A stretch of 64,000 nt of DNA, taken from assembly GCA_031254645.1 (NCBI GenBank), contig JAIRUA010000007.1:124001-188000 (forward strand), given 5' to 3'. The translations under genes and the position numbers were made by a program. A model generated the notes under the pieces. The model searched no databases and was not told the origin of the DNA. It saw only the letters and a program-made list of their open reading frames with translations. Shown here in pieces: positions 13,531 to 24,676 of this stretch. Origin of the DNA: Dysgonamonadaceae bacterium. GTDB taxonomy: Bacteria > Bacteroidota > Bacteroidia > Bacteroidales > Dysgonomonadaceae. The stretch's first letter is position 1. Every line of letters begins with the position of its first letter.

Positions 13531-13665
13531 CTATTTTGCTCTTGCCAAATTGGATGGTGTTTTCATTTTCTCATAATTCGCACATAATGCGAAGAAAAAA
13601 TTTATACTCACGATTGCAGTAGATATTATAATCTGTAAAAGTTCAAACTTGAGCCTTTGAATTTC

Positions 13666-13983
13666 CTAACAACTCGATTCACAACGAGCATAACTTCCTA
13701 TCAATTCCTCAAACATCTCTTTTGCTAATGCCCAATTTTCAGGATTGATACAATATTTCACCTTCGGAGGTTGAATTTCGCCTTGTATCAGCCCCGAACT
13801 TTTCAATTCTGCAAGATGCTGCGAAACAGTTGCTTTCGAAATAGGTAGCACTTCGTTTATATCGCCAAAAAAACATTCACAGCGTGATGCTAAGAATTTT
13901 AATATCGCGATGCGCGTAGGGTGTCCCATCGCCTTGGCAAATCGTGCTAATTGCTTTTCTCGTTCTGTGTAATTATTCTTCAT
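13666..13983 (-). CDS. ArsR-family winged-helix repressor
   Basis: 105 residues from the ATG at 13983; a longer reading frame to 14118 runs across the promoter and is rejected. The winged helix is clear: MGHPTRIAILKFLASR, PISKATVSQHLAELKSSGLI, GEIQPPKVKYCI. Cysteines sit at C35-x-C37 in the position of the metalloid site of classical ArsR (CEC instead of CVC), with C78, C101 and C105 in addition, the last two in a C-terminal RCESSC. These could sense metal, metalloid or thiol reagents. No arsenic gene lies beside it; its nearest neighbour (DUF3667) is divergent about 370 bp away. The target is unknown. Confidence 0.82.
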   Translation of the reverse strand: MKNNYTEREKQLARFAKAMGHPTRIAILKFLASRCECFFGDINEVLPISKATVSQHLAELKSSGLIQGEIQPPKVKYCINPENWALAKEMFEELIGSYARCESSC

Positions 13984-14012
13984 TTTCCTAAAACTTTCAA
14001 CTAAACTGAATA

Positions 14013-14043
14013 CAAATTTACGACTTTTTTTCGCTTTTGCAAA
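14013..14043 (-). promoter_or_regulatory. Promoter of the ArsR-family gene
   Basis: Minus strand: TTTG (14043-14040), 19-nt spacer, TAAATTTG (14020-14013), 29 nt before the ATG at 13983. A full match to the Bacteroidota consensus. Confidence 0.8.
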
Positions 14044-14224
14044 CTTTGTATTATACTTTTCATTTAATTTACAATAAGTTGCATTCGCAATTCGGCAAAC
14101 AACAAACAAAAAAGTCAAGAGATATTACATTCCAATTCATATTTGGAGAAAGGTGTAGAATTTCGCTCGTGAGGCACAACATCTCTTTAGTTCTTAAAAA
14201 AACTTCTCTTATACATACTTACAT

Positions 14225-14350: not shown

Positions 14351-15091
14351 ATGAATAGTTGTAAAAATTGTAATGAGCCGACAAATGGAAATTATTGTTC
14401 AAATTGCGGACAACCAACAGTTCTAAAAAGAATTGACAAACACTACATCTTTCAAGAAATTGGAGAAATTTTGGGAGCAAAAAAAGGATTGTTATTTACA
14501 ATAAAAAAGCTACTTATAAGTCCGGGAAAAAGTGTTCGTCATTTCCTTGCAAAAGACAGGTATCGATTTGTTAAACCTATTCTTTTTCTCATTGTAATGT
14601 CATTAATTTACACATTTGTGAATTATTTTTCCCAAATTAAAATTGACGAATATGCCTTTTCAAGCCCATTTCTAAACATTAGAGTTGACGGAGTCGAGGG
14701 AGTTGAAAGCGTTTTTAAGTGGATGAGAGAAAATTTTGGTTATTCAAACCTGTTAATCGGATTGTTTATGGCGTTTTGGGTAAAGTTATTATTCAGAAAA
14801 TCCGGTTACAATCTTTTTGAGATTTTTATTCTTATGTGTTTTGTGTCCGGTATATCAATAATATTTCTTTCTGTCGGCACAATTATCCAAAACATAACGC
14901 ATTGGCACTTATTGCAAATTTCAAATCTTATCACAATGATTTATCTCGTGTGGGCAGTGGGGCAATTCTTTGACAAGAAAAGAGTTGCAAGTTACGCAAA
15001 AACATTGCTCGCTTATTTCTTGGGAGCAATTACATTTAGCGCATTTGTATTATCGATTGGGTTTCTAATTGACATTATAATGAATAAATAA
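14351..15091 (+). CDS. DUF3667 zinc-ribbon membrane protein, copy 1
   Basis: 246 residues. It begins with a zinc ribbon C4-x2-C7 / C16-x2-C19 (NSCKNCNEPTNGNYCSNCGQ), then the family segment LISPGKSVRHFLAKDRYRFV and about five TM helices (from about residue 75 to the end). This is the DUF3667 pattern; function unknown, inner membrane. A close paralogue lies at 23945-24676, inside the lipid A operon, with the same helices in the same order (YSNLLIGLFMAFWVKLLFRKSGYN against YSSIITGLFMAFWVKIFFRKSGYN). This copy is followed by three palindromes and then a radical SAM gene. Confidence 0.82.
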   Translation: MNSCKNCNEPTNGNYCSNCGQPTVLKRIDKHYIFQEIGEILGAKKGLLFTIKKLLISPGKSVRHFLAKDRYRFVKPILFLIVMSLIYTFVNYFSQIKIDEYAFSSPFLNIRVDGVEGVESVFKWMRENFGYSNLLIGLFMAFWVKLLFRKSGYNLFEIFILMCFVSGISIIFLSVGTIIQNITHWHLLQISNLITMIYLVWAVGQFFDKKRVASYAKTLLAYFLGAITFSAFVLSIGFLIDIIMNK

Positions 15092-15136
15092 ACAGCAAAT
15101 AACTAACAATGTTACCTTCCCATTTATTATGACTTA

Positions 15137-15180
15137 AAGTACTTTGTCGTTAAAAGTACTTTTTTACTAAAAGTACTTTT
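15137..15180. promoter_or_regulatory. Three tandem AAAGTACTTT palindromes
   Basis: AAAGTACTTT at 15137-15146, AAAAGTACTTTT at 15152-15163 and again at 15169-15180, with centres 16 and 17 bp apart, so all lie roughly on the same helix face if 1.5 turns are allowed for. The same AAAGTACTTT core is part of the operator-like palindromes of the CreD operon at 50-51 kb. They could be protein-binding sites for the radical SAM promoter 115 bp downstream. Alternatively, since each copy is self-complementary, adjacent copies may pair into a terminator hairpin for the DUF3667 gene, with T-runs following. Confidence 0.55.
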
Positions 15181-15295
15181 TCATATTTAGTTTTCGGCAA
15201 GAATAAAAATCCGAGCTACCAGCTTTATCATCATTCAAAAAAATTACACAATTTTCGTAATATTTCTAAATAAATCGCAAATATATTGAATTACT

Positions 15296-15326
15296 TTTGT
15301 TATTTGAGACTAATAAACTACCTTTG
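15296..15326 (+). promoter_or_regulatory. Promoter of the radical SAM gene
   Basis: TTTG at 15296-15299, 19-nt spacer, TACCTTTG at 15319-15326, 66 nt before the ATG at 15393. Confidence 0.72.
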
Positions 15327-15392
15327 CTTCTGATTTACAAACAGTTGAATTTGTTGTTCGCCGAACACCGAACGAATAAAAGAGTGATTTAG

Positions 15393-16601
15393 ATGAACAA
15401 ATATGTAATAGAAGGAGTCAATATTGATTCTGTAGAATTAAAATGTCTATTGATTAGTCGCGGGATATACGTTGATGAAGCAGTATATCAAAATTATAAA
15501 GGAATTGCCCGATTAAGCAAAAGTCCACTTTGCTGCAATTGTCTTATACTGAGCGACGGTACTATTGCACAGTTGACTGATATGGGATCACATTTGCGTC
15601 TTCTTTCCGGTATGCTTGATTGGGATAATGCCGAATCGAAAAAACTCACTGATAATTTAGCGACACCTTTTTCCTTACGAATGAAAAATAATGCTGCTAC
15701 ACTATTCTATAAAAATGAAGAAATTGATACAATAACTTTTCCACCGGCGACTGATTTTTACAAACAGAAAACCGCATCGGGAAACCCTTTCGTGGGAAAC
15801 GCCGTGCTGCAAGGTGTTGATTGGGTATCATTTCAATGTCTATGGGCTTGTGAATATGCGGCTACAGGCGATGCATGTGAATTTTGTTTTTCGGGAGTTG
15901 ATTTCGAAGCTACCGCCAAAAAAGGAAAATCATTACCACCGGCTTTTCCGGCAGCAGATGTGGCTGAAATAGTAAAATATGCGATTAACAACGTGAATGT
16001 CTGCAACGTTCAAATTACCGGAGGTTCTACTTTTAATGGAGAAAGAGAAGCGAAACATATCATTGATTATCTGAATGCTATCGACCAATTGACGACAAAA
16101 CCTTGTGGCGAGACTCTTCTTTACATCACACCGCCGACAGATTTAACATTTATCGACCGCTATTTTTCCCTCGGTGCAAGTCGCATTGCGTGTAGCGTAG
16201 AAGTATGGGATTTGGCTCTCGCAAAAAAAATTACACCCGGAAAAGTAAACATTACCGGACGTAAAGAACATTTGCAAGTATTAGAATATATTGCGCAAAA
16301 GTATGGGCAAGGCAAAGCGTTTTCTAACCTCATTATTGGTCTCGAAAATTTTGAAACATTAAAAGAAGGTGCTACTTTTCTTGCAAAACGTGGAATTATG
16401 CCGTCTGCCTCTATTTGGATGCCAATGGGGAAACCGGTACAAAGCAGTATGAAAGCACCCGATATTGATTTTTATCGACAAGTAAAAGAGCTTTTTGCCG
16501 AACTATATTTGAAATACAATCTCGAACCAACGCCTTGTAAGGGATTGAATGTGTGTATTGAAAGAGATATTTGGAACTTCGCCACCAATTCAAAGATTTA
16601 A
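15393..16601 (+). CDS. Radical SAM protein with non-canonical cysteine spacing
   Basis: 402 residues. Instead of the usual CX3CX2C, the likely cluster site is C149-x3-C153-x8-C162-x2-C165 (ACEYAATGDACEFCF). Radical SAM support comes from the following strand and glycine-rich SAM loop NVQITGGSTFNG, then FIDRYFSLGASRIACSVEVW, a KKITPGKVN segment and SNLIIGLEN. Further cysteines are at the N-terminus (LCCNCLI) and C-terminus (TPCKGLNVC) and may bind auxiliary clusters. The product is unknown to me. The downstream gene (24 bp away, same strand) encodes a rhodanese/TonB receptor, so the two probably form one unit. Confidence 0.75.
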   Translation: MNKYVIEGVNIDSVELKCLLISRGIYVDEAVYQNYKGIARLSKSPLCCNCLILSDGTIAQLTDMGSHLRLLSGMLDWDNAESKKLTDNLATPFSLRMKNNAATLFYKNEEIDTITFPPATDFYKQKTASGNPFVGNAVLQGVDWVSFQCLWACEYAATGDACEFCFSGVDFEATAKKGKSLPPAFPAADVAEIVKYAINNVNVCNVQITGGSTFNGEREAKHIIDYLNAIDQLTTKPCGETLLYITPPTDLTFIDRYFSLGASRIACSVEVWDLALAKKITPGKVNITGRKEHLQVLEYIAQKYGQGKAFSNLIIGLENFETLKEGATFLAKRGIMPSASIWMPMGKPVQSSMKAPDIDFYRQVKELFAELYLKYNLEPTPCKGLNVCIERDIWNFATNSKI

Positions 16602-16625
16602 TGATTCAATAATTCAAAGATTGAA

Positions 16626-19442
16626 ATGAAACTTACGATTATTTCTATCAATATTATCACAGCGATTGTTCGTTTTTTTACTTCATCAGCCGAAATTCAC
16701 AATTTGAATCCGGATGAATTTGAAGAAAAACTTAATATTTTCGGAACCGAGCAATTAATTGATGTGAGTTATCCGCGTGAATTTAAGGAAAATCACATTT
16801 CGGGTGCGATAAACATCAATTTCAGGGATTCCGATTTTCGGGAACAAATTGCGGCATTAGCGTTAGATAAAGATAAGCCTATTTTTTTGTATTGCGGACA
16901 CGGCGTTCGCAGTAAATTATCAGCAAATAGAATTCGAAAAATGGGATTCACAACCATTTTCGATCTCGATAAAGGTTTACATAGCTGGATGGAAGTCGGA
17001 AAGCCAACAAATTCAACAAATAACGAAGAAAAAGATCAAATAGAAAAAAATATGGAATTAAAAAAAACACTATTACTCGGCTTCACAGCCGCCTGCCTCA
17101 CACTCACAGCGCAGGAAACAGAAAATGTCATTAACCTCGAAGAGGTAATCGTTACTGCTCAAGGACGCGAAGAACGTATGCTTGTGGTACCTATCACGAT
17201 GAACTCGTTGAGCGGCAATTTTTTGGAAACAACAAACACAACAGATTTAACGCAGCTCTCAAACTTTGTTCCGGGATTAAACGTTCGTATTCAAACGCCG
17301 TATCGTCCCACATTCGTGATTCGCGGATTGACGAGCGACGAAGTAAGTCCGACAGCACAACCGCGCGTATCCACCTACTTCAACAACGCACCTATCAGTC
17401 GTGCTTCAATGGCAAAAAGCAATCTATTTGATATGGAGCGCGTTGAAGTGGTAAAAGGTCCACAAGGAACACTTTTTGGACGTGGATCACAAATCGGTGG
17501 AATTAATTTTATTACAAGAAAACCAGCATCAGATTTTGGCGGATATGTTGGATTAGGTGTTGGAAATTATGGAATGACCGAAGTACAAGGTGTTATTAAT
17601 GTACCTGTTATCGACAATAAGTTGATGTTCCGTATGGGTGGAAGTCATCAATATAGAGACGGATATGTTGAGAATCTTTCGAGCAACAAAAATCTTGGCG
17701 GCATCAATTCAACCGATCTTCGTTTTTCGGCGCGTTATTTGCCAATGAACAATTTCAGAATCGACCTGATTGTTGATTATCAAAACGATAAAGATAACGG
17801 AACGCCATTTATGAGCAAACGTTTCCCAAATTCGGAAGGTGTTACCAATATTTTCGATTTCAAAGCGTCGTTTGACGAGGGTACAAAATTTTTCAATCAT
17901 CGCGAATTATTGGGTACAATGCTCGATATGAATTACAGGATAAACGATAGAAACTCAATCACATCACTTACATCGTTTCATCACAACTTTGCTGATGCAC
18001 GTTGGGACGGTGATGGAACGCAAGCACCTGCAATAGATTTCGCAGAATCGGTAAAAGTAAATCAATTTACACAAGAATTTCGCTGGAATTTTACGCAAGA
18101 CCGTCTCAATGGCTTTATCGGCACAAGTTTTTGGCGCGAAGATGTGAGTCAAAAATATCAATTTAACCCTGACGAAAGATATTTGATGTGGTTGATGATG
18201 GATGCTTTTGGAGTAACAGGCGATGCTTTTGGAATGCCCGGAAAAATGGGTAACAATATGATTTTGCCAAACGGAACACCGAATCCGATGCAAGATATGA
18301 TGGTTGCCGGAATGTTAATGGGTATGGGATTGCCTGAACAAATGGTCGGAATGATTCCACCATTGAGTGCGCGTTCGGAATTAAAAGAAACTTCGGCGAT
18401 TAACAGCGCATTTGATTTGTTCGTAAATTTCGATTTCAGTATCACAGACCGATTGATTTTTAATGTCGGTGCTCGCGCTATTTGGGACAAACTTTCGATT
18501 GCCGATATGGTAAATCCAGTAGATGGAAGTCCGGCTTCAACCATCGGTTTTTTGACACAAGTGATGCAAGGTGGTATGCCTAATCCTAATAATCCGAACT
18601 TCTTGTTTGCTGTTTCGCCGCTTGTGGAAGAATCGAAAAATTATTTTGCTGCCACTTATCGCACAAGTCTTAAATATTTGATAAACAACAATGCTACTGT
18701 TTTTGGCGGATTTTCAACCGGTCGTCGTCCGGCTGTTTTGCAGCCCACCATTACAGGCGATATCGTAGAAGCTGCACCCGAAACGGTGAACAGTTTTGAC
18801 ATTGGTTTCAAATATTTCGAAAGAGGACATTTTTCATTTGATGCAGGACTTTTCTATCAGACTTACAGAGATTTCCAAGCAACTACTTTCGACAACTTCT
18901 ACACCATTTTGCCCGTGAGCAAGGCAACTTCTTATGGTGCAGAGTTTAACAAGAGTGTAACACTTTGTCGTCATTTAGATGTTTTCGGAAATTATGCTTT
19001 CATTCACGCACGTTTTAACGACAATGTTGTGATGCCGGGAACTGACCCAACAACAGGTCAACCAATTGAAGTTACTTACAAACTGAAAGACAATCATTTT
19101 CGCCTAACACCCGACCATAGTTTCACGTTCGGATTAAATGCAAGGGCAAGACTTTCGCGTAATATTGGAATGGTTTTCACACCCACCTATACTTACAAAA
19201 GTAAAATCTATTTCGAAGACAACAACGACCCCGACTTGACACAAGCCGGACACGGTTTATTAAATTTAAATCTTGGTTTTAATTTCATTCAGCAAAGGAT
19301 TAATGTTTCGCTATTTGCGAATAACGTAACGAACGAAAAATACATCATTAGTGCCGGAAATACAGGTTTGATGTTTCACGCACCCACATTCGTACCGGGT
19401 ATACCGACGACGTTTGGTGTGAGGGCGAGATGGAGTTTTTGA
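16626..19442 (+). CDS. Rhodanese domain fused in frame to a TonB-dependent outer-membrane receptor
   Basis: One open frame of 938 codons with two distinct parts. Residues 1-135: hydrophobic start (MKLTIISINIITAIVRFF) and a rhodanese domain with LIDVSYPREFKENHISGAIN and active-site loop YC(90)GHGVRSK. Residues 143-938: a second start (ATG at 17052) with a classical signal peptide (MELKKTLLLGFTAACLTLTA then Q), TonB-box-like EEVIVTAQ, plug motifs GLNVRIQTPYRPTFVIRGLT and VEVVKGPQGTLFGRGSQIGG, and a beta-barrel ending in VRARWSF. An internal signal peptide cannot work in a real fusion, so the receptor is probably also initiated at 17052. About residues 520-578 hold 14 methionines, unlike the rest of the barrel. 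Confidence 0.82.
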   Translation: MKLTIISINIITAIVRFFTSSAEIHNLNPDEFEEKLNIFGTEQLIDVSYPREFKENHISGAININFRDSDFREQIAALALDKDKPIFLYCGHGVRSKLSANRIRKMGFTTIFDLDKGLHSWMEVGKPTNSTNNEEKDQIEKNMELKKTLLLGFTAACLTLTAQETENVINLEEVIVTAQGREERMLVVPITMNSLSGNFLETTNTTDLTQLSNFVPGLNVRIQTPYRPTFVIRGLTSDEVSPTAQPRVSTYFNNAPISRASMAKSNLFDMERVEVVKGPQGTLFGRGSQIGGINFITRKPASDFGGYVGLGVGNYGMTEVQGVINVPVIDNKLMFRMGGSHQYRDGYVENLSSNKNLGGINSTDLRFSARYLPMNNFRIDLIVDYQNDKDNGTPFMSKRFPNSEGVTNIFDFKASFDEGTKFFNHRELLGTMLDMNYRINDRNSITSLTSFHHNFADARWDGDGTQAPAIDFAESVKVNQFTQEFRWNFTQDRLNGFIGTSFWREDVSQKYQFNPDERYLMWLMMDAFGVTGDAFGMPGKMGNNMILPNGTPNPMQDMMVAGMLMGMGLPEQMVGMIPPLSARSELKETSAINSAFDLFVNFDFSITDRLIFNVGARAIWDKLSIADMVNPVDGSPASTIGFLTQVMQGGMPNPNNPNFLFAVSPLVEESKNYFAATYRTSLKYLINNNATVFGGFSTGRRPAVLQPTITGDIVEAAPETVNSFDIGFKYFERGHFSFDAGLFYQTYRDFQATTFDNFYTILPVSKATSYGAEFNKSVTLCRHLDVFGNYAFIHARFNDNVVMPGTDPTTGQPIEVTYKLKDNHFRLTPDHSFTFGLNARARLSRNIGMVFTPTYTYKSKIYFEDNNDPDLTQAGHGLLNLNLGFNFIQQRINVSLFANNVTNEKYIISAGNTGLMFHAPTFVPGIPTTFGVRARWSF

Positions 19443-19543: not shown

Positions 19544-20506
19544 TTACCTCCTTCTTCCCGGCATCAAATCATCTCTTCTTTCGATGAAAATATTATTAGA
19601 AATCTGAATATCTTCATATTTGCCTGATAAATTAGTTGAAAGTAACAATCGTTCTACTTCTCTCGAACTATTTGTCAAATTTATAATCAAAGAATCAACT
19701 TGTCTGGAATACTCAAAAGTATTTCTATTCTCGCCATACCAAAGATAACGATGAGTTCGAAGTGAGCCCATTACGCTTATTTTCTCAACTTTTGATTGAG
19801 GGTGAATGGCAAAAGAGCCGATAGATTCGTTCAACCGTAAATCCAAATTCATACTTTCCGAATCCCAATCAAAAAGTCTAAAACTGCCATTCTTGCTATC
19901 TGCATCTACACAGACATCGCTTCCTTTCACATCAAGTGTCAATTCTCCACCGTTTTGTCTAATTTTGATATGAGATATATCTGTATTGAGCCATATACGA
20001 GCATTGCCATAAGATAAACGCATTTTATCCCCTTTGAAGCCTAAAATATTGTGTTGCTTATTTCCGTGATTGTCTGTATCAATACTATGAACTAAATTCG
20101 GTTCTTCCGGCATTGACACAAAAACAGGCATCCATTTTGGATTATCTGCTCCACCTCGTCCGAAATAACGAAGATGTAAATTATTATTATCCAATCTAAC
20201 ATCAACACTATCTTTATTATAGCTACTCAAATAGACGGCATATTCATCGCCTTTAAACAAGAATACAGTAATACCATCAAGTATTAAATTTGAAAATTGA
20301 GAAAGTGGCATCTTGCTAAATGTCTTCAATTTACCATTATCTAATAACTCACGCGCTTGCGGTGCGGTTTGTATATTGTGTATTTTTGCGAAATCGCCAA
20401 TCACTCGCTTGGAAAATATTACTTGCCAAACAATTAGGCTTAATATCACTACTCCTAATATAATGAGTAGTTTTGTAGAAAGTTTTTTTATCTGTATCAT
20501 CATCAT
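19544..20506 (-). CDS. Membrane-anchored protein of the GntR/ABC operon, unknown function
   Basis: 320 residues: one N-terminal TM (KLLIILGVVILSLIVWQVIF, about 12-32) and an otherwise extracytoplasmic beta-rich body with repeated strand patterns (SVDVRLDNNNLHLRYFG, KIRQNGGELTLDVKGSDVCV, SMNLDLRLNESIGSFAIHPQ) that resemble right-handed adhesin-like domains of the DUF4097/DUF2807 type. I do not recognise the exact family. Its ATG overlaps the stop of the GntR gene, so it is the last cistron of the ABC exporter operon and may be a sensor or accessory of that transporter. Confidence 0.65.
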   Translation of the reverse strand: MMMIQIKKLSTKLLIILGVVILSLIVWQVIFSKRVIGDFAKIHNIQTAPQARELLDNGKLKTFSKMPLSQFSNLILDGITVFLFKGDEYAVYLSSYNKDSVDVRLDNNNLHLRYFGRGGADNPKWMPVFVSMPEEPNLVHSIDTDNHGNKQHNILGFKGDKMRLSYGNARIWLNTDISHIKIRQNGGELTLDVKGSDVCVDADSKNGSFRLFDWDSESMNLDLRLNESIGSFAIHPQSKVEKISVMGSLRTHRYLWYGENRNTFEYSRQVDSLIINLTNSSREVERLLLSTNLSGKYEDIQISNNIFIERRDDLMPGRRR

Positions 20507-20868
20507 TTATTTACATTAAATTGTTTATACAAAATGTCGATTTCTTCCATTGAGAAATCCAACAGAACAATGTTTTTGAAAAATTCGGGCAATTCTTGTT
20601 CTTTGAAATTCTTTTTCCACTCTTTTTTGACAATCGAATAAGCATTTTCAGATACAAAATAGCCGATACCACGCTTATTATAAATAATTTCCTTTTGTTG
20701 AAGAATTTCAAAAGCCCTAACCGCTGTGTTGGGATTTACTTCCATTGCCACAGCCAAATCCCGAACACTCGGAATGCGTTCTTCCGCTTTCCATTCTTTT
20801 CGAAGAATTTTTTCTTCCATTATCTTTGCTATTTGAAGATAAATAGCTTGTGATTCTGAGAATTTCAT
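20503..20868 (-). CDS. GntR-family regulator, YtrA type
   Basis: 121 residues, the short form of GntR: winged helix at 1-75 (IYLQIAKIMEEKIL, ERIPSVRDLAVAMEVNPNTA, RAFEILQQKEIIYNKRGIGY) and a short dimerising tail of about 45 residues without a large effector domain. YtrA-type regulators normally repress their own ABC transporter operon, which fits the two ABC genes directly upstream (4 bp to the permease). The palindrome at 22546-22571 over the operon start is its likely operator. Confidence 0.88.
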   Translation of the reverse strand: MKFSESQAIYLQIAKIMEEKILRKEWKAEERIPSVRDLAVAMEVNPNTAVRAFEILQQKEIIYNKRGIGYFVSENAYSIVKKEWKKNFKEQELPEFFKNIVLLDFSMEEIDILYKQFNVNK

Positions 20869-20872
20869 ACGC

Positions 20873-21682
20873 TTAAATTGTTTTTTCGTTATACTTCACA
20901 TACGAAATAAACATCAGAAACAGACTGAAAAACATACCGTAGCAATAGGCTGAAATCGGATATAATAGCATAAAATAAGCACCACCATCATTTGTAAAAA
21001 GCCTTTCTCCCGGAAAAGCATACACCGGGAAACTGCCTGTAAACAGGAAATAAGTAACAAATGTTGCTAAAGATGCACCTACAATTACACCAAAAATAAG
21101 CACTATGGACTTTACCGCCGCCCATTTTTTGAATGATACAATACTGAATAAATGAATTGAGGCGGAAAAAATCCAAACGAGGAACATTATTGAAAATATT
21201 CGAAACTCGTCTCCCTCCAAGTCAAATGTTTGATAGAATCGGTGAAAATCTCTAAGCCTCCATTCATCAAATTCATTTGCTTGCCTTACCCACTCGTTCT
21301 GCATCTTCAACCACTCTAATCCTATCAACGTTATCATAATGAAAATGATAACATAAGGAATGAATGACAATAGAAGTTTTGCCCAAAATGTTTCGTTTCG
21401 CGAAGCGGGCAATAAGAGCAATGATGTTGTTTTCTTCTTAGATAAAAATTCTCTAAAATATATTTGAAGATAAAAACCCTGCAATATACTCATCGTGAGA
21501 ATAGCTGTCCAAAATGCTGAGTATATCGTAATGATTTCTTTCTGGATAAGTCCTTGATAGGCAAAATATCCAATGAAAAGAGCTACGACTACACCCCAAA
21601 ACAGCAACACCTTCTTCCAATTCAAACACCACTCATTACTTATCACTTTCAAAAAGCGACTAAAATTAAAATTTGTATCCAT
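20873..21682 (-). CDS. ABC transporter permease-like membrane protein
   Basis: 269 residues with about six TM segments (LLFWGVVVALFIGYFAYQGL, AFWTAILTMSILQGFYLQIY, LLLSFIPYVIIFIMITLIG, FLVWIFSASIHLFSIVSF, ILIFGVIVGASLATFVTYFL, CYGMFFSLFLMFISYV). No sequence-level family motif is strong, but its place 4 bp after an ABC ATPase gene and before a YtrA-type GntR gene fits the ABC-2-like permease of such operons. Confidence 0.75.
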   Translation of the reverse strand: MDTNFNFSRFLKVISNEWCLNWKKVLLFWGVVVALFIGYFAYQGLIQKEIITIYSAFWTAILTMSILQGFYLQIYFREFLSKKKTTSLLLLPASRNETFWAKLLLSFIPYVIIFIMITLIGLEWLKMQNEWVRQANEFDEWRLRDFHRFYQTFDLEGDEFRIFSIMFLVWIFSASIHLFSIVSFKKWAAVKSIVLIFGVIVGASLATFVTYFLFTGSFPVYAFPGERLFTNDGGAYFMLLYPISAYCYGMFFSLFLMFISYVKYNEKTI

Positions 21683-21686
21683 AATC

Positions 21687-22532
21687 CTATCTATTTTTAT
21701 CGGTAAATAAATCTGTTATCTGTTCTTTTTCGGCAACAATTCCATTGAATAACAATTCAATATTCACACGCGATGGAATATCCGAATCGTTTTTCGCAAT
21801 GCCTTTTCCGCCCAATGCAGCGGTTTCTTCATACAAGAATTGTGTGCCGGAATTTGTGCCGTTATACGCCACAAACGACAATTTTTCGGAAATAGCATCA
21901 ATGCTTTCGTTGAAAATAATTTGATGCTCGTCCAACACCACAATCGCATCAATCAAATTTTCCAAATCGCGCACTTGATGCGTGGAAATCACGATGCAAC
22001 GATTTTTGGAAGCCACCGAAGCAATCAATTTTCGAAATTGTGCTTTCGAGGGAATATCCATTCCGTTCGTTGGCTCGTCCATTAGCAAAACGCGTGTGTT
22101 ACAAGCTAATGCAAAAGAGATGTACGCTTTTTTTCGTTGTCCCATCGACATTTTGTGCATCGTGGTGTTGACGTTTACATCAAATTCTTTCAAATAATGG
22201 TCGTACTGCTCGGCATCGAAATGCGGATAAAACGAAGCGAAAAGCATCGCATATTTTTTCAGACTGACATCGGGAACGTCAAATTCTTCAGAAACGAGAA
22301 AAAGATTTTGAAGAAAATCGACTTGCCGTTTTTCGGGATTTTTACCCAATACACCAATTTTCCCTTCCACAGGAAAAAGCAGACCCGAAACAAGGCTTAA
22401 TAAAGTTGTTTTTCCTGTTCCGTTTTTTCCTAACAAGCCATAGATATGACCTTCTGAGAGGGTCAAATTCAAATCTTCGAAGAGCTTATCACGCTTGTTG
22501 TAAGTGAAATAGAGATTTTTTATTGCAATCAT
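21687..22532 (-). CDS. ABC transporter ATP-binding protein
   Basis: 281 residues. Walker A LLGKNGTGKTTLLSL (about 33-47), signature KMSMGQRKKAYISFALA, Walker B RVLLMDEPTNGMD, switch His in ISTHQ. Modified LSGGQ (MSMGQ) and a C-terminal extension of about 80 residues are usual for export-type ATPases in GntR-regulated operons such as YtrB. First gene of a four-gene operon (ATPase, permease, GntR, membrane-anchored protein). Confidence 0.92.
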   Translation of the reverse strand: MIAIKNLYFTYNKRDKLFEDLNLTLSEGHIYGLLGKNGTGKTTLLSLVSGLLFPVEGKIGVLGKNPEKRQVDFLQNLFLVSEEFDVPDVSLKKYAMLFASFYPHFDAEQYDHYLKEFDVNVNTTMHKMSMGQRKKAYISFALACNTRVLLMDEPTNGMDIPSKAQFRKLIASVASKNRCIVISTHQVRDLENLIDAIVVLDEHQIIFNESIDAISEKLSFVAYNGTNSGTQFLYEETAALGGKGIAKNDSDIPSRVNIELLFNGIVAEKEQITDLFTDKNR

Positions 22533-22787: not shown

Positions 22788-23948
22788 TTAACTACTAATC
22801 ATTTTAACAACTACTTCCGCCGCTTTTTCCGATGGCAATTTATCCGCAGGTTTCAATTTCGCAAGTTGTTCTTTCGCTTGCATCATTTGTATTTCGCCTT
22901 TTTCTTTGTCTTGAAAAAACGAAAGAGCTTCGGGCACAATTAAATCGGATCGACAATTTCGCAATACAAATTCGGGTATAATCAATCGGTCTGCTAAAAT
23001 ATTGATAAGGTTGGCAAATTTTATTTTCACAAAAAACTCAGCCATTCTATTTGTCAGCCAGTTAAATGTGTAAGCAATAATGTGTGGTGTACCGCAAGCG
23101 GTCAATTCCAACGAAACAGTACCCGAAGCAGCGAGGGCAAATTCACTCATTCGAAATGCCTCATAACGAGCTTGTTGTCCGGTAATTATTTTGTACGGAG
23201 TACCGATATTTTTGAAATGTTCGTTTATTTCGTCTTTCATTGTTTCTACCGAAGGAATGAATAGAAAAAGATTCGGAATTTCTTTGTGCAATTGTTTGAT
23301 ACTTTCCACAAAAACGGGCGCAAGTTTGCTTACTTCACTATGACGAGAGCCGGGAAGTACGCATAAAATTCGTGCATTTTCGGCAGTTCGGCTTCGCTCA
23401 CTAAGCGGAGCCGGTGGCTGAGCGGAGCCGAAGCCCAAATCAGCAATATTTTCAATCACCGGATGCCCAACAAAAGTACACGGTAGACCATATTTTTCGA
23501 AATATTGCGGTTCATTGGGCAAAAGCGTCATCAAATGATTCATTAGTTTTGCCGCTTTTTTGGCGCGTCCTTTTTTCCATGCCCATACTTGCGGCGCCAC
23601 GTAATGAACGACAGGAATTGTATTCTTTCGTTTTTTCAAAATCTTCAAAACCGAACTGATAAATCCCCAACTATCAACAGTTACGATTACATCGGGTTGC
23701 ACACGCTCGATATCATTCAACACTTCTTTTCGGCGGCGCAAAATCACAGGCAATCGCGGAATGACTTCCATTACGCCCATTACCGAAAGATCTTTTATAT
23801 CGAAAAGGGAATTGAATCCTTCGATTCGCATTGTTTCACCACCGATGCCAAAAAATTGCGCTTCGGGATGTTCGTGGCGAATGGCTTTTATAAGGCGAGA
23901 GGCAAGAATATCGCCCGACGGTTCACCGACAATGAGGTAAATCTTCAT
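22788..23948 (-). CDS. lpxB: Lipid-A-disaccharide synthase with in-frame repeat insertion
   Basis: 386 residues. GT-B glycosyltransferase family 19 hallmarks: VGEPSGDILASRLI at the start, FFGIGGETM, LSVMGVMEVIPRL, YVAPQVWAWKKGR, LPNEPQYFEKYGLPCTFVGHP, LPGSRHSEV, and ALAASGTVSLELTACGTPHI. It joins UDP-diacylglucosamine and lipid X to form the lipid A disaccharide. Just before LPGSRH the protein carries an extra stretch FGSAQPPAPLSERSRTAEN encoded by a palindromic repeat (23387-23432), in a surface linker between the two domains. Its ATG overlaps the DUF3667 stop, so translation is probably coupled. Confidence 0.93.
   Translation of the reverse strand: MKIYLIVGEPSGDILASRLIKAIRHEHPEAQFFGIGGETMRIEGFNSLFDIKDLSVMGVMEVIPRLPVILRRRKEVLNDIERVQPDVIVTVDSWGFISSVLKILKKRKNTIPVVHYVAPQVWAWKKGRAKKAAKLMNHLMTLLPNEPQYFEKYGLPCTFVGHPVIENIADLGFGSAQPPAPLSERSRTAENARILCVLPGSRHSEVSKLAPVFVESIKQLHKEIPNLFLFIPSVETMKDEINEHFKNIGTPYKIITGQQARYEAFRMSEFALAASGTVSLELTACGTPHIIAYTFNWLTNRMAEFFVKIKFANLINILADRLIIPEFVLRNCRSDLIVPEALSFFQDKEKGEIQMMQAKEQLAKLKPADKLPSEKAAEVVVKMISS
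23387..23432. repeat. Palindromic repeat inside lpxB coding sequence
   Basis: Arms TTCGGCTTCGCTCA (23387-23400) and TGAGCGGAGCCGAA (23419-23432) are complementary at 13 of 14 positions with an 18-nt G/C-rich loop. GC content is far above the surrounding gene. It is read in frame as part of GFGSAQPPAPLSERSRTAEN and keeps lpxB open. Confidence 0.75.
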
Positions 23949-24676
23949 TTTATTATTTCATCAATTAAAGTTCCGACAATTGTTATTACAATTGACAAAG
24001 CAAGCACTCCCAAAACATAGGAAAAGAATGCTTTTATGTAGCTTGCCGCTTTCTTCACATCAAAAAATTGCCCAATTGACCATACAAGATAAATTATGCT
24101 AATATAAATTGTAATTTGCATTAAGTTCCAATGCGTTATTCCTTGTACAATTGCTACACCGGAAAAAAATAACGACTGTATTCCGGACACAAAACATAAG
24201 AGGATAAAAATTTCAAAAAAGTTATAGCCGGATTTTCTGAAAAATATTTTTACCCAAAATGCCATAAATAATCCGGTTATTATGCTCGAATAACCAGGGT
24301 ATTTTATCAGCATCCAATCAAAAATAAGGGTTATCGTAGAGCCTTCGAGCACATCGGATTGTTGGTAAAAATCTTCTGCCGTAATATGAAACAGATAATT
24401 GACAAGCGAATAAACCAATGACGTTATAAAGAGAAACGTAATGGGTTTTACGAACCGAAATCTATCTTCAGCGATAAACTCTCTAGTGCTTCTACCGGGA
24501 TTGATAAGCATTTTTTTGATGGTGTATATCATTCCCTTGTTAGCAAACAAAAACTCTGAAATTTCGTGAATGAGATAATGTTTGTCGATTCTTCTGAGGG
24601 TTGCGGGTTGTCCGCAATTTGGACAGAAGTTTTTGTTAATGGTACATTTGCAGTTCTTGCAGGTAGTTGTTTGCAT
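23945..24676 (-). CDS. DUF3667 zinc-ribbon membrane protein, copy 2, in the lipid A operon
   Basis: 243 residues: zinc ribbon C6-x2-C9 / C18-x2-C21 (TCKNCKCTINKNFCPNCGQP), then INPGRSTREFIAEDRFRFV and about five TM helices. It is a clear paralogue of the protein at 14351-15091. It sits between lpxI (8 bp upstream) and lpxB (4-bp overlap), so it is made together with lipid A enzymes. Function unknown; a role in envelope lipid handling is only suggested by this position. Confidence 0.82.
   Translation of the reverse strand: MQTTTCKNCKCTINKNFCPNCGQPATLRRIDKHYLIHEISEFLFANKGMIYTIKKMLINPGRSTREFIAEDRFRFVKPITFLFITSLVYSLVNYLFHITAEDFYQQSDVLEGSTITLIFDWMLIKYPGYSSIITGLFMAFWVKIFFRKSGYNFFEIFILLCFVSGIQSLFFSGVAIVQGITHWNLMQITIYISIIYLVWSIGQFFDVKKAASYIKAFFSYVLGVLALSIVITIVGTLIDEIIK

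Follow-up and report, generated by a model that had tools for sequence, protein, structure and literature searches.

A radical SAM enzyme encoded beside a TonB-dependent receptor in a Dysgonamonadaceae bacterium and in several other Bacteroidota

Anaerobic heme uptake offers the nearest described parallel for the locus considered here. In that system, an HmuR-type TonB-dependent receptor is accompanied by a radical S-adenosylmethionine (SAM) enzyme of the HmuW/ChuW/HutW kind, which processes what the receptor brings in, as set out in PMC10404700. The present locus lies in a 64,000-nucleotide stretch of a Dysgonamonadaceae bacterium genome (assembly GCA_031254645.1, contig JAIRUA010000007.1, positions 124,001 to 188,000 of the forward strand; the whole stretch is called the window hereafter), where a radical SAM gene is followed by a single frame in which a rhodanese runs on into a TonB-dependent receptor. 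As with HmuR and HmuW, receptor and radical SAM enzyme are encoded at one locus; in contrast, the window's enzyme belongs to the variant_rSAM family, and neither an ABC transporter nor a flavodoxin was seen beside it. Because the enzyme matched another family, the system is not filed under heme use of the HmuW/ChuW type. The pairing of enzyme and receptor is real and recurs in Bacteroidota, and no description of it was found in the open-access literature searched, subscription papers being outside that scope. Its parts in the window, together with the rhodanese, are the following.

15393..16601, + strand: radical SAM enzyme, 402 amino acids; NCBIfam variant_rSAM; likely cluster cysteines C153-x8-C162-x2-C165; invariant C48 and C388
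16626..17051, + strand: rhodanese part of the joined frame, recognized by Pfam; hydrophobic N-terminus; CGHGVRS loop with C90
17052..19442, + strand: TonB-dependent receptor part of the same frame; plug and barrel domains; signal-like start of its own (MELKKTLLLGFTAACLTLTAQ)

Only 24 bp separate the stop of the enzyme gene from the joined frame (16626-19442, + strand), in which Pfam places Rhodanese at positions 29-122, Plug at 188-289 and the TonB barrel at 385-901, all above cut-off. This gene order, the short gap and the joined frame had been claimed in a first-pass annotation of the window, along with an unusual cysteine spacing in the enzyme, a DUF3667 membrane protein upstream and a divergent ArsR gene, and each of these was found as described.

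For comparison with the window, 49 other loci holding the enzyme were gathered (10 from Bacteroidota, 39 from elsewhere). Two Bacteroidota loci, L002 and L035, were set aside because their contigs stop short on the very side that might hold a receptor; L002, thus excluded from the count, has a SusC-type receptor two genes from the enzyme on the other strand. Among the nine informative Bacteroidota loci that remain, window included, a receptor of the window's family adjoins the enzyme in six (the window, L018, L021, L025, L026 and L039). With the cut loci kept in, five of the ten fetched Bacteroidota loci carry such a receptor, as does the window. The receptor gene comes first, on the same strand, in L018, L021, L025, L026 and L039, at distances of 514, 748, 91, 49 and 99 bp respectively, one small gene lying between the two in L018 and L021; in the window it is the enzyme that comes first. 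With the density of plug-domain matches as baseline (15 to 148 per genome across seven genomes), the chance of six linked loci in nine is 2.8e-7 for immediate neighbours and 1.4e-5 within two genes. Counted instead as three of five lineages, it is 4e-4 and 3e-3.

The linked enzymes fall into two clades, separated by rows from Bacillota and Actinomycetota, and the tree requires at least four changes of label. A single clade of linked enzymes appeared in 0% of 200 bootstrap trees and had a p of 7.6e-47 in the approximately unbiased (AU) test, in both cases for a group defined once an earlier tree had been seen, and with every row whose context was unknown scored as unlinked. On the receptor side, seven label changes were counted against a mean of 10.6 in shuffled labels, and one of 500 shuffles was as low; since most rows are of unknown context, the receptor tree neither favours nor refutes a single origin of the linkage. 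Contig sizes also speak for the pairing: six of the 120 listed enzyme contigs equal in size a contig among the 120 listed receptors, compared with a mean of 0.63 and a maximum of 4 in 400 shifted controls. One of these six pairs (3870 bases) joins contigs whose sources differ between the lists, and it could be a coincidence.

The enzyme itself is a member of NCBIfam NF045502 (variant_rSAM), scoring 186.9 bits against a cut-off of 125 over profile positions 4-357 of 357; Pfam yields nothing for it at E<=0.01. The only other NCBIfam family listed for it at E<=0.1 is TIGR04043, the MSMEG_0568 or Nit1C-type family; here its 73.5 bits fall far below the cut-off of 303.7, and its neighbours differ from those of that family. 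ArsS (TIGR04167) is not among the families listed, and the presence of a ChuW/HutW model in NCBIfam was not checked. The usual spacing of the radical SAM motif is C-x3-C-x2-C. In the window the order is C149-x3-C153-x8-C162-x2-C165, and across an alignment of 78 sequences C48, C153, C162, C165 and C388 never vary and C149 is kept in at least 90%, a pattern that makes C-x8-C-x2-C the likely cluster motif. The AlphaFold model (pLDDT, the predicted local distance difference test score, of 93.7) is a LipA/BioB-like barrel whose fold matches LipA, HydG, NosL and BioB; HemN (1olt) ranks 30th in Foldseek. Barrel and three-cysteine motif, by which the superfamily is recognized, are thus both present in model and alignment, and reductive cleavage of SAM at a bound [4Fe-4S] cluster is predicted. 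The family comprises 561 protein clusters, of which 120 are among the matches listed. Neither single-sequence nor profile search found a sequence relative in the PDB, and the viral contigs searched held no relative.

The receptor part carries a plug (PF07715, 51.1 bits) and a barrel (PF00593, 97.9 bits), both above cut-off, and is by these a TonB-dependent receptor. The structure prediction called for in the first-pass annotation yields a plug and barrel with a pLDDT of 88.2, for which FyuA is Foldseek's best match (E 3e-43) and shares a Z of 39-40 with FhuA, Fiu and FoxA; FyuA is also the sole PDB profile match at E<=1e-20. The predicted kinship is thus closest to the siderophore receptors, with which the model shares plug and barrel, but identity to FyuA is just 17-18% in structure alignments and the score against TIGR01783 (TonB-siderophor) is 105.3 bits, below the cut-off of 223.5, which places the window's receptor outside that subfamily.

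The rhodanese appears to be a more local matter. This 142-residue part scores 66.7 bits against PF00581, and C90 is invariant in a three-sequence alignment. Its relatives are P0244, a separate 138-residue protein with 84% identity, and P0245 (40%). The same fusion to the receptor occurs in P0125 (915 residues, a separate record), which makes a base error in the window genome alone an unlikely cause of the joined frame. The fusion is present in 2 of the 120 receptor matches listed, the window and P0125, and P0244 is separate, so an ancient fused design was set aside. The P0244 rhodanese, the enzyme P0089 and the unfused receptor P0126 come from contigs that are all of size 25038, which is indirect evidence of a shared locus; enzyme, rhodanese and receptor thus probably sit side by side in a set of three close relatives, with the fusion in the window and P0125 and separate genes in the third. 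No rhodanese lies within two genes of the enzyme in the 49 other loci, as searched with a four-sequence profile that remote rhodaneses may escape; in L048 one lies about 3 kb away. Because the start is hydrophobic in the window (by hydropathy) and lipoprotein-like in P0245 (by eye), export of the rhodanese is possible. The receptor part retains its own signal-like start within the joined frame, and for that reason the frame could give either two products from two starts or one joint product that is cleaved.

Because the pairing recurs in several other Bacteroidota, enzyme and receptor likely form one system. What that system does is more tentative. The reading favoured here, held at a little less than even confidence, is that the enzyme and the rhodanese-receptor frame make up a cassette for importing and converting a small compound that is probably a metal chelate. 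The receptor, with its predicted siderophore-type fold, would take the compound up, and a carrier encoded elsewhere would pass it through the inner membrane; at other loci, major facilitator superfamily (MFS) carriers stand beside the enzyme or the receptor (L025, L026 and L040) or two genes off (L044). The enzyme would then alter the compound in the cytoplasm by radical chemistry, in a host whose life without oxygen is suggested by the type of enzyme, and the rhodanese would be an exported accessory of recent addition. In this scheme the inward movement of the compound, the kind of ligand, anaerobic life, the inner-membrane carrier and the late arrival of the exported rhodanese are inferred. 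A more specific version, which is unlikely, envisages an undescribed route of metal-chelate salvage in anaerobes: FyuA-like import of a metallophore or organometal that the C-x8-C-x2-C enzyme dismantles, with the metal-binding DUF5714 as partner in other phyla and, in the lineage of the window, fusion of the receptor to a sulfurtransferase that is exported and would transfer sulfur at the import gate. If the favoured reading is true, a further radical SAM family can be added to the handful known to act on ligands imported by a TonB-dependent receptor, and an uncharacterised family gains a testable class of substrate, namely the ligand of the neighbouring receptor.

The first-pass annotation had suggested a cassette of enzyme, rhodanese and receptor, possibly an undescribed metal, sulfur or small-molecule system, with the receptor taking up or recovering a compound made or modified by the rhodanese and the enzyme. 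Its enzyme-receptor core holds in Bacteroidota; the rhodanese, DUF3667 and ArsR do not recur beside the enzyme in the 49 other loci and are for that reason regarded as non-core. Several observations weigh against an import-and-convert cassette. The same annotation had held that enzyme homologues regularly found with neither a rhodanese nor a receptor nearby would refute a single system, and this is in part what is seen: none of the 39 non-Bacteroidota loci has a receptor beside the enzyme, and three of the nine informative Bacteroidota loci (L005, L033 and L040) lack one. Beyond Bacteroidota the enzyme keeps different company from locus to locus (DUF5714, GPH symporters, ArsM-like enzymes), with no evident common substrate. 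None of the 120 listed enzyme clusters has a contig equal in size to that of any of the receptor clusters P0127-P0140, the 14 next in likeness to the window trio (55-68% identity), and four receptors at 41-45% identity have no enzyme in the 14-19 kb fetched around each. The ligand class is taken from likeness of fold, which by itself shows no ligand. Lastly, the enzymes of the window and P0025 are 68% alike and their receptors only 46%, for which reason an exchange of receptor or a separate pairing is likely there; a mirror-tree r of 0.87 over 11 pairs is taken as weak because near relatives and this exchange are among them.

The main rival, itself rather unlikely, is that the enzyme is a mobile stand-alone catalyst with a metabolic or repair reaction of its own, which landed near dense receptor genes and shares no substrate with them. 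Its spread is indeed patchy (three sets of 61, 395 and 393 genomes yielded one carrier apiece, always the genome of the window itself), many of its loci are without a receptor, and the five linked genomes searched hold 53 to 148 plug-domain matches each, but the linked loci always show the same receptor family, in two enzyme clades and both gene orders, and chance would account for this with a probability between 2.8e-7 and 3e-3, according to the way of counting. It is improbable that the enzyme helps to make or mature an exported metallophore which the receptor retrieves in loaded form: the siderophore-type fold would suit this and the MFS carriers at some loci could be exporters, but no non-ribosomal peptide synthetase (NRPS), NRPS-independent siderophore (NIS) synthetase, precursor peptide or other biosynthetic partner is found among the annotated neighbours, part of which were scanned. 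Insertion of sulfur by a LipA/BioB-like enzyme fed by the rhodanese is a thin prospect, given that the Z margin over HydG, NosL and BioB is only about 1.5-2, that the rhodanese, by weak signs, looks exported and hence away from a cytoplasmic enzyme, and that no rhodanese stands beside the enzyme in any of the 49 other loci.

Use of cyanide or nitriles, in which an enzyme distantly akin to NitD (which we take to correspond to TIGR04043) would act alongside a cyanide-detoxifying rhodanese, is very remote: the TIGR04043 match that suggests it falls far short of that family's cut-off, and no nitrilase or other nit1C-type gene is named among the annotated neighbours. Handling of arsenic or another metalloid under ArsR control, with the enzyme acting on an organo-metalloid, is a prospect slightly thinner than that of sulfur insertion. 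An ArsR gene is divergent in the window, ArsM-like methyltransferases adjoin the enzyme in L010 and L044, and DUF5714, found next to the enzyme at 11 of the 39 loci from outside Bacteroidota, is akin to part of MbdU, which is named a metal-binding selenoprotein in a review (PMC13188914). Set against these are an ArsR homologue in none of the 49 other loci, ArsM-like genes in just two of them, and the lack of an ArsS match among the families listed for the enzyme.

DUF5714 matches the N-terminal part of MbdU at 123.4 bits (cut-off 600), and 16 of the 47 enzyme-bearing genomes searched carry it; it is absent from the eight Bacteroidota among them and from the window's cassette, in which respect the window differs from MbdU-like settings. 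In L090-L094 it lies apart from the variant_rSAM gene, with neighbours (named by eye) that resemble another radical SAM type in L091 and L093 and XdhC, an NTP transferase and a C_GCAxxG_C_C protein in L092. Two adjacent DUF5714 matches were noted at L091:7295-8487, in the Cuneatibacter genome that holds L031, away from that genome's variant_rSAM-type enzyme. Further partners include GPH symporters in L003, L008 and L015 (L044 has a GPH-like match as well, on the opposite strand), old-yellow-enzyme-type flavoenzymes in L010 and L022, and a lactonase-like hydrolase of beta-lactamase fold in L018, L021 and L035. Several of these neighbours (MFS, GPH, hydrolase) are of an uptake or catabolic kind, though without agreement on one substrate. 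At L015:6178-12360 the enzyme is flanked by a GH116 beta-glucosidase and a GPH symporter on one side and by a DUF2961 protein on the other, an arrangement like that of loci for sugar use. Next to the MFS-receptor-enzyme group of the L026 genome, a divergent row at L071:2708-9044 encodes squalene-hopene-cyclase-like, polyprenyl-synthetase/DUF116, radical SAM and ferredoxin-type proteins.

Two neighbours in the window are not counted as parts of the system.

14351..15091, + strand: DUF3667 membrane protein; Pfam 40.9 bits, cut-off 27
13666..14118, - strand: ArsR/SmtB regulator; NF033788 59.4 bits, cut-off 55

They are left out because neither has a counterpart among the predicted open reading frames of the 49 other loci (phmmer E<=1e-3), and a fixed cassette that included them and the rhodanese was rejected, none of the three recurring there. 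For the regulator, an ATG at 13983 is the likelier start, judging by the sequence. Downstream of its gene, at 13577-13593, is a perfect inverted repeat, TTCGCA-N5-TGCGAA; nothing else in the window matches it perfectly. At a tolerance of two mismatches the window holds nine matches against 6.4 expected, a count that shows no regulon, and the repeat was set aside as an ArsR operator. DUF3667 is 301 bp from the enzyme gene; in between, at 15136-15180, are stacked inverted repeats built on AAAAGTACTTTT, possibly a terminator or repeat element. A second DUF3667 protein, paralogous to the first, lies at 23945-24676 on the - strand (phmmer 1.4e-83 against 14351-15091). On the receptor's downstream side, the opposite strand (19544-22532, -) encodes a GntR regulator, an ABC-transporter ATPase and two proteins without a Pfam match.

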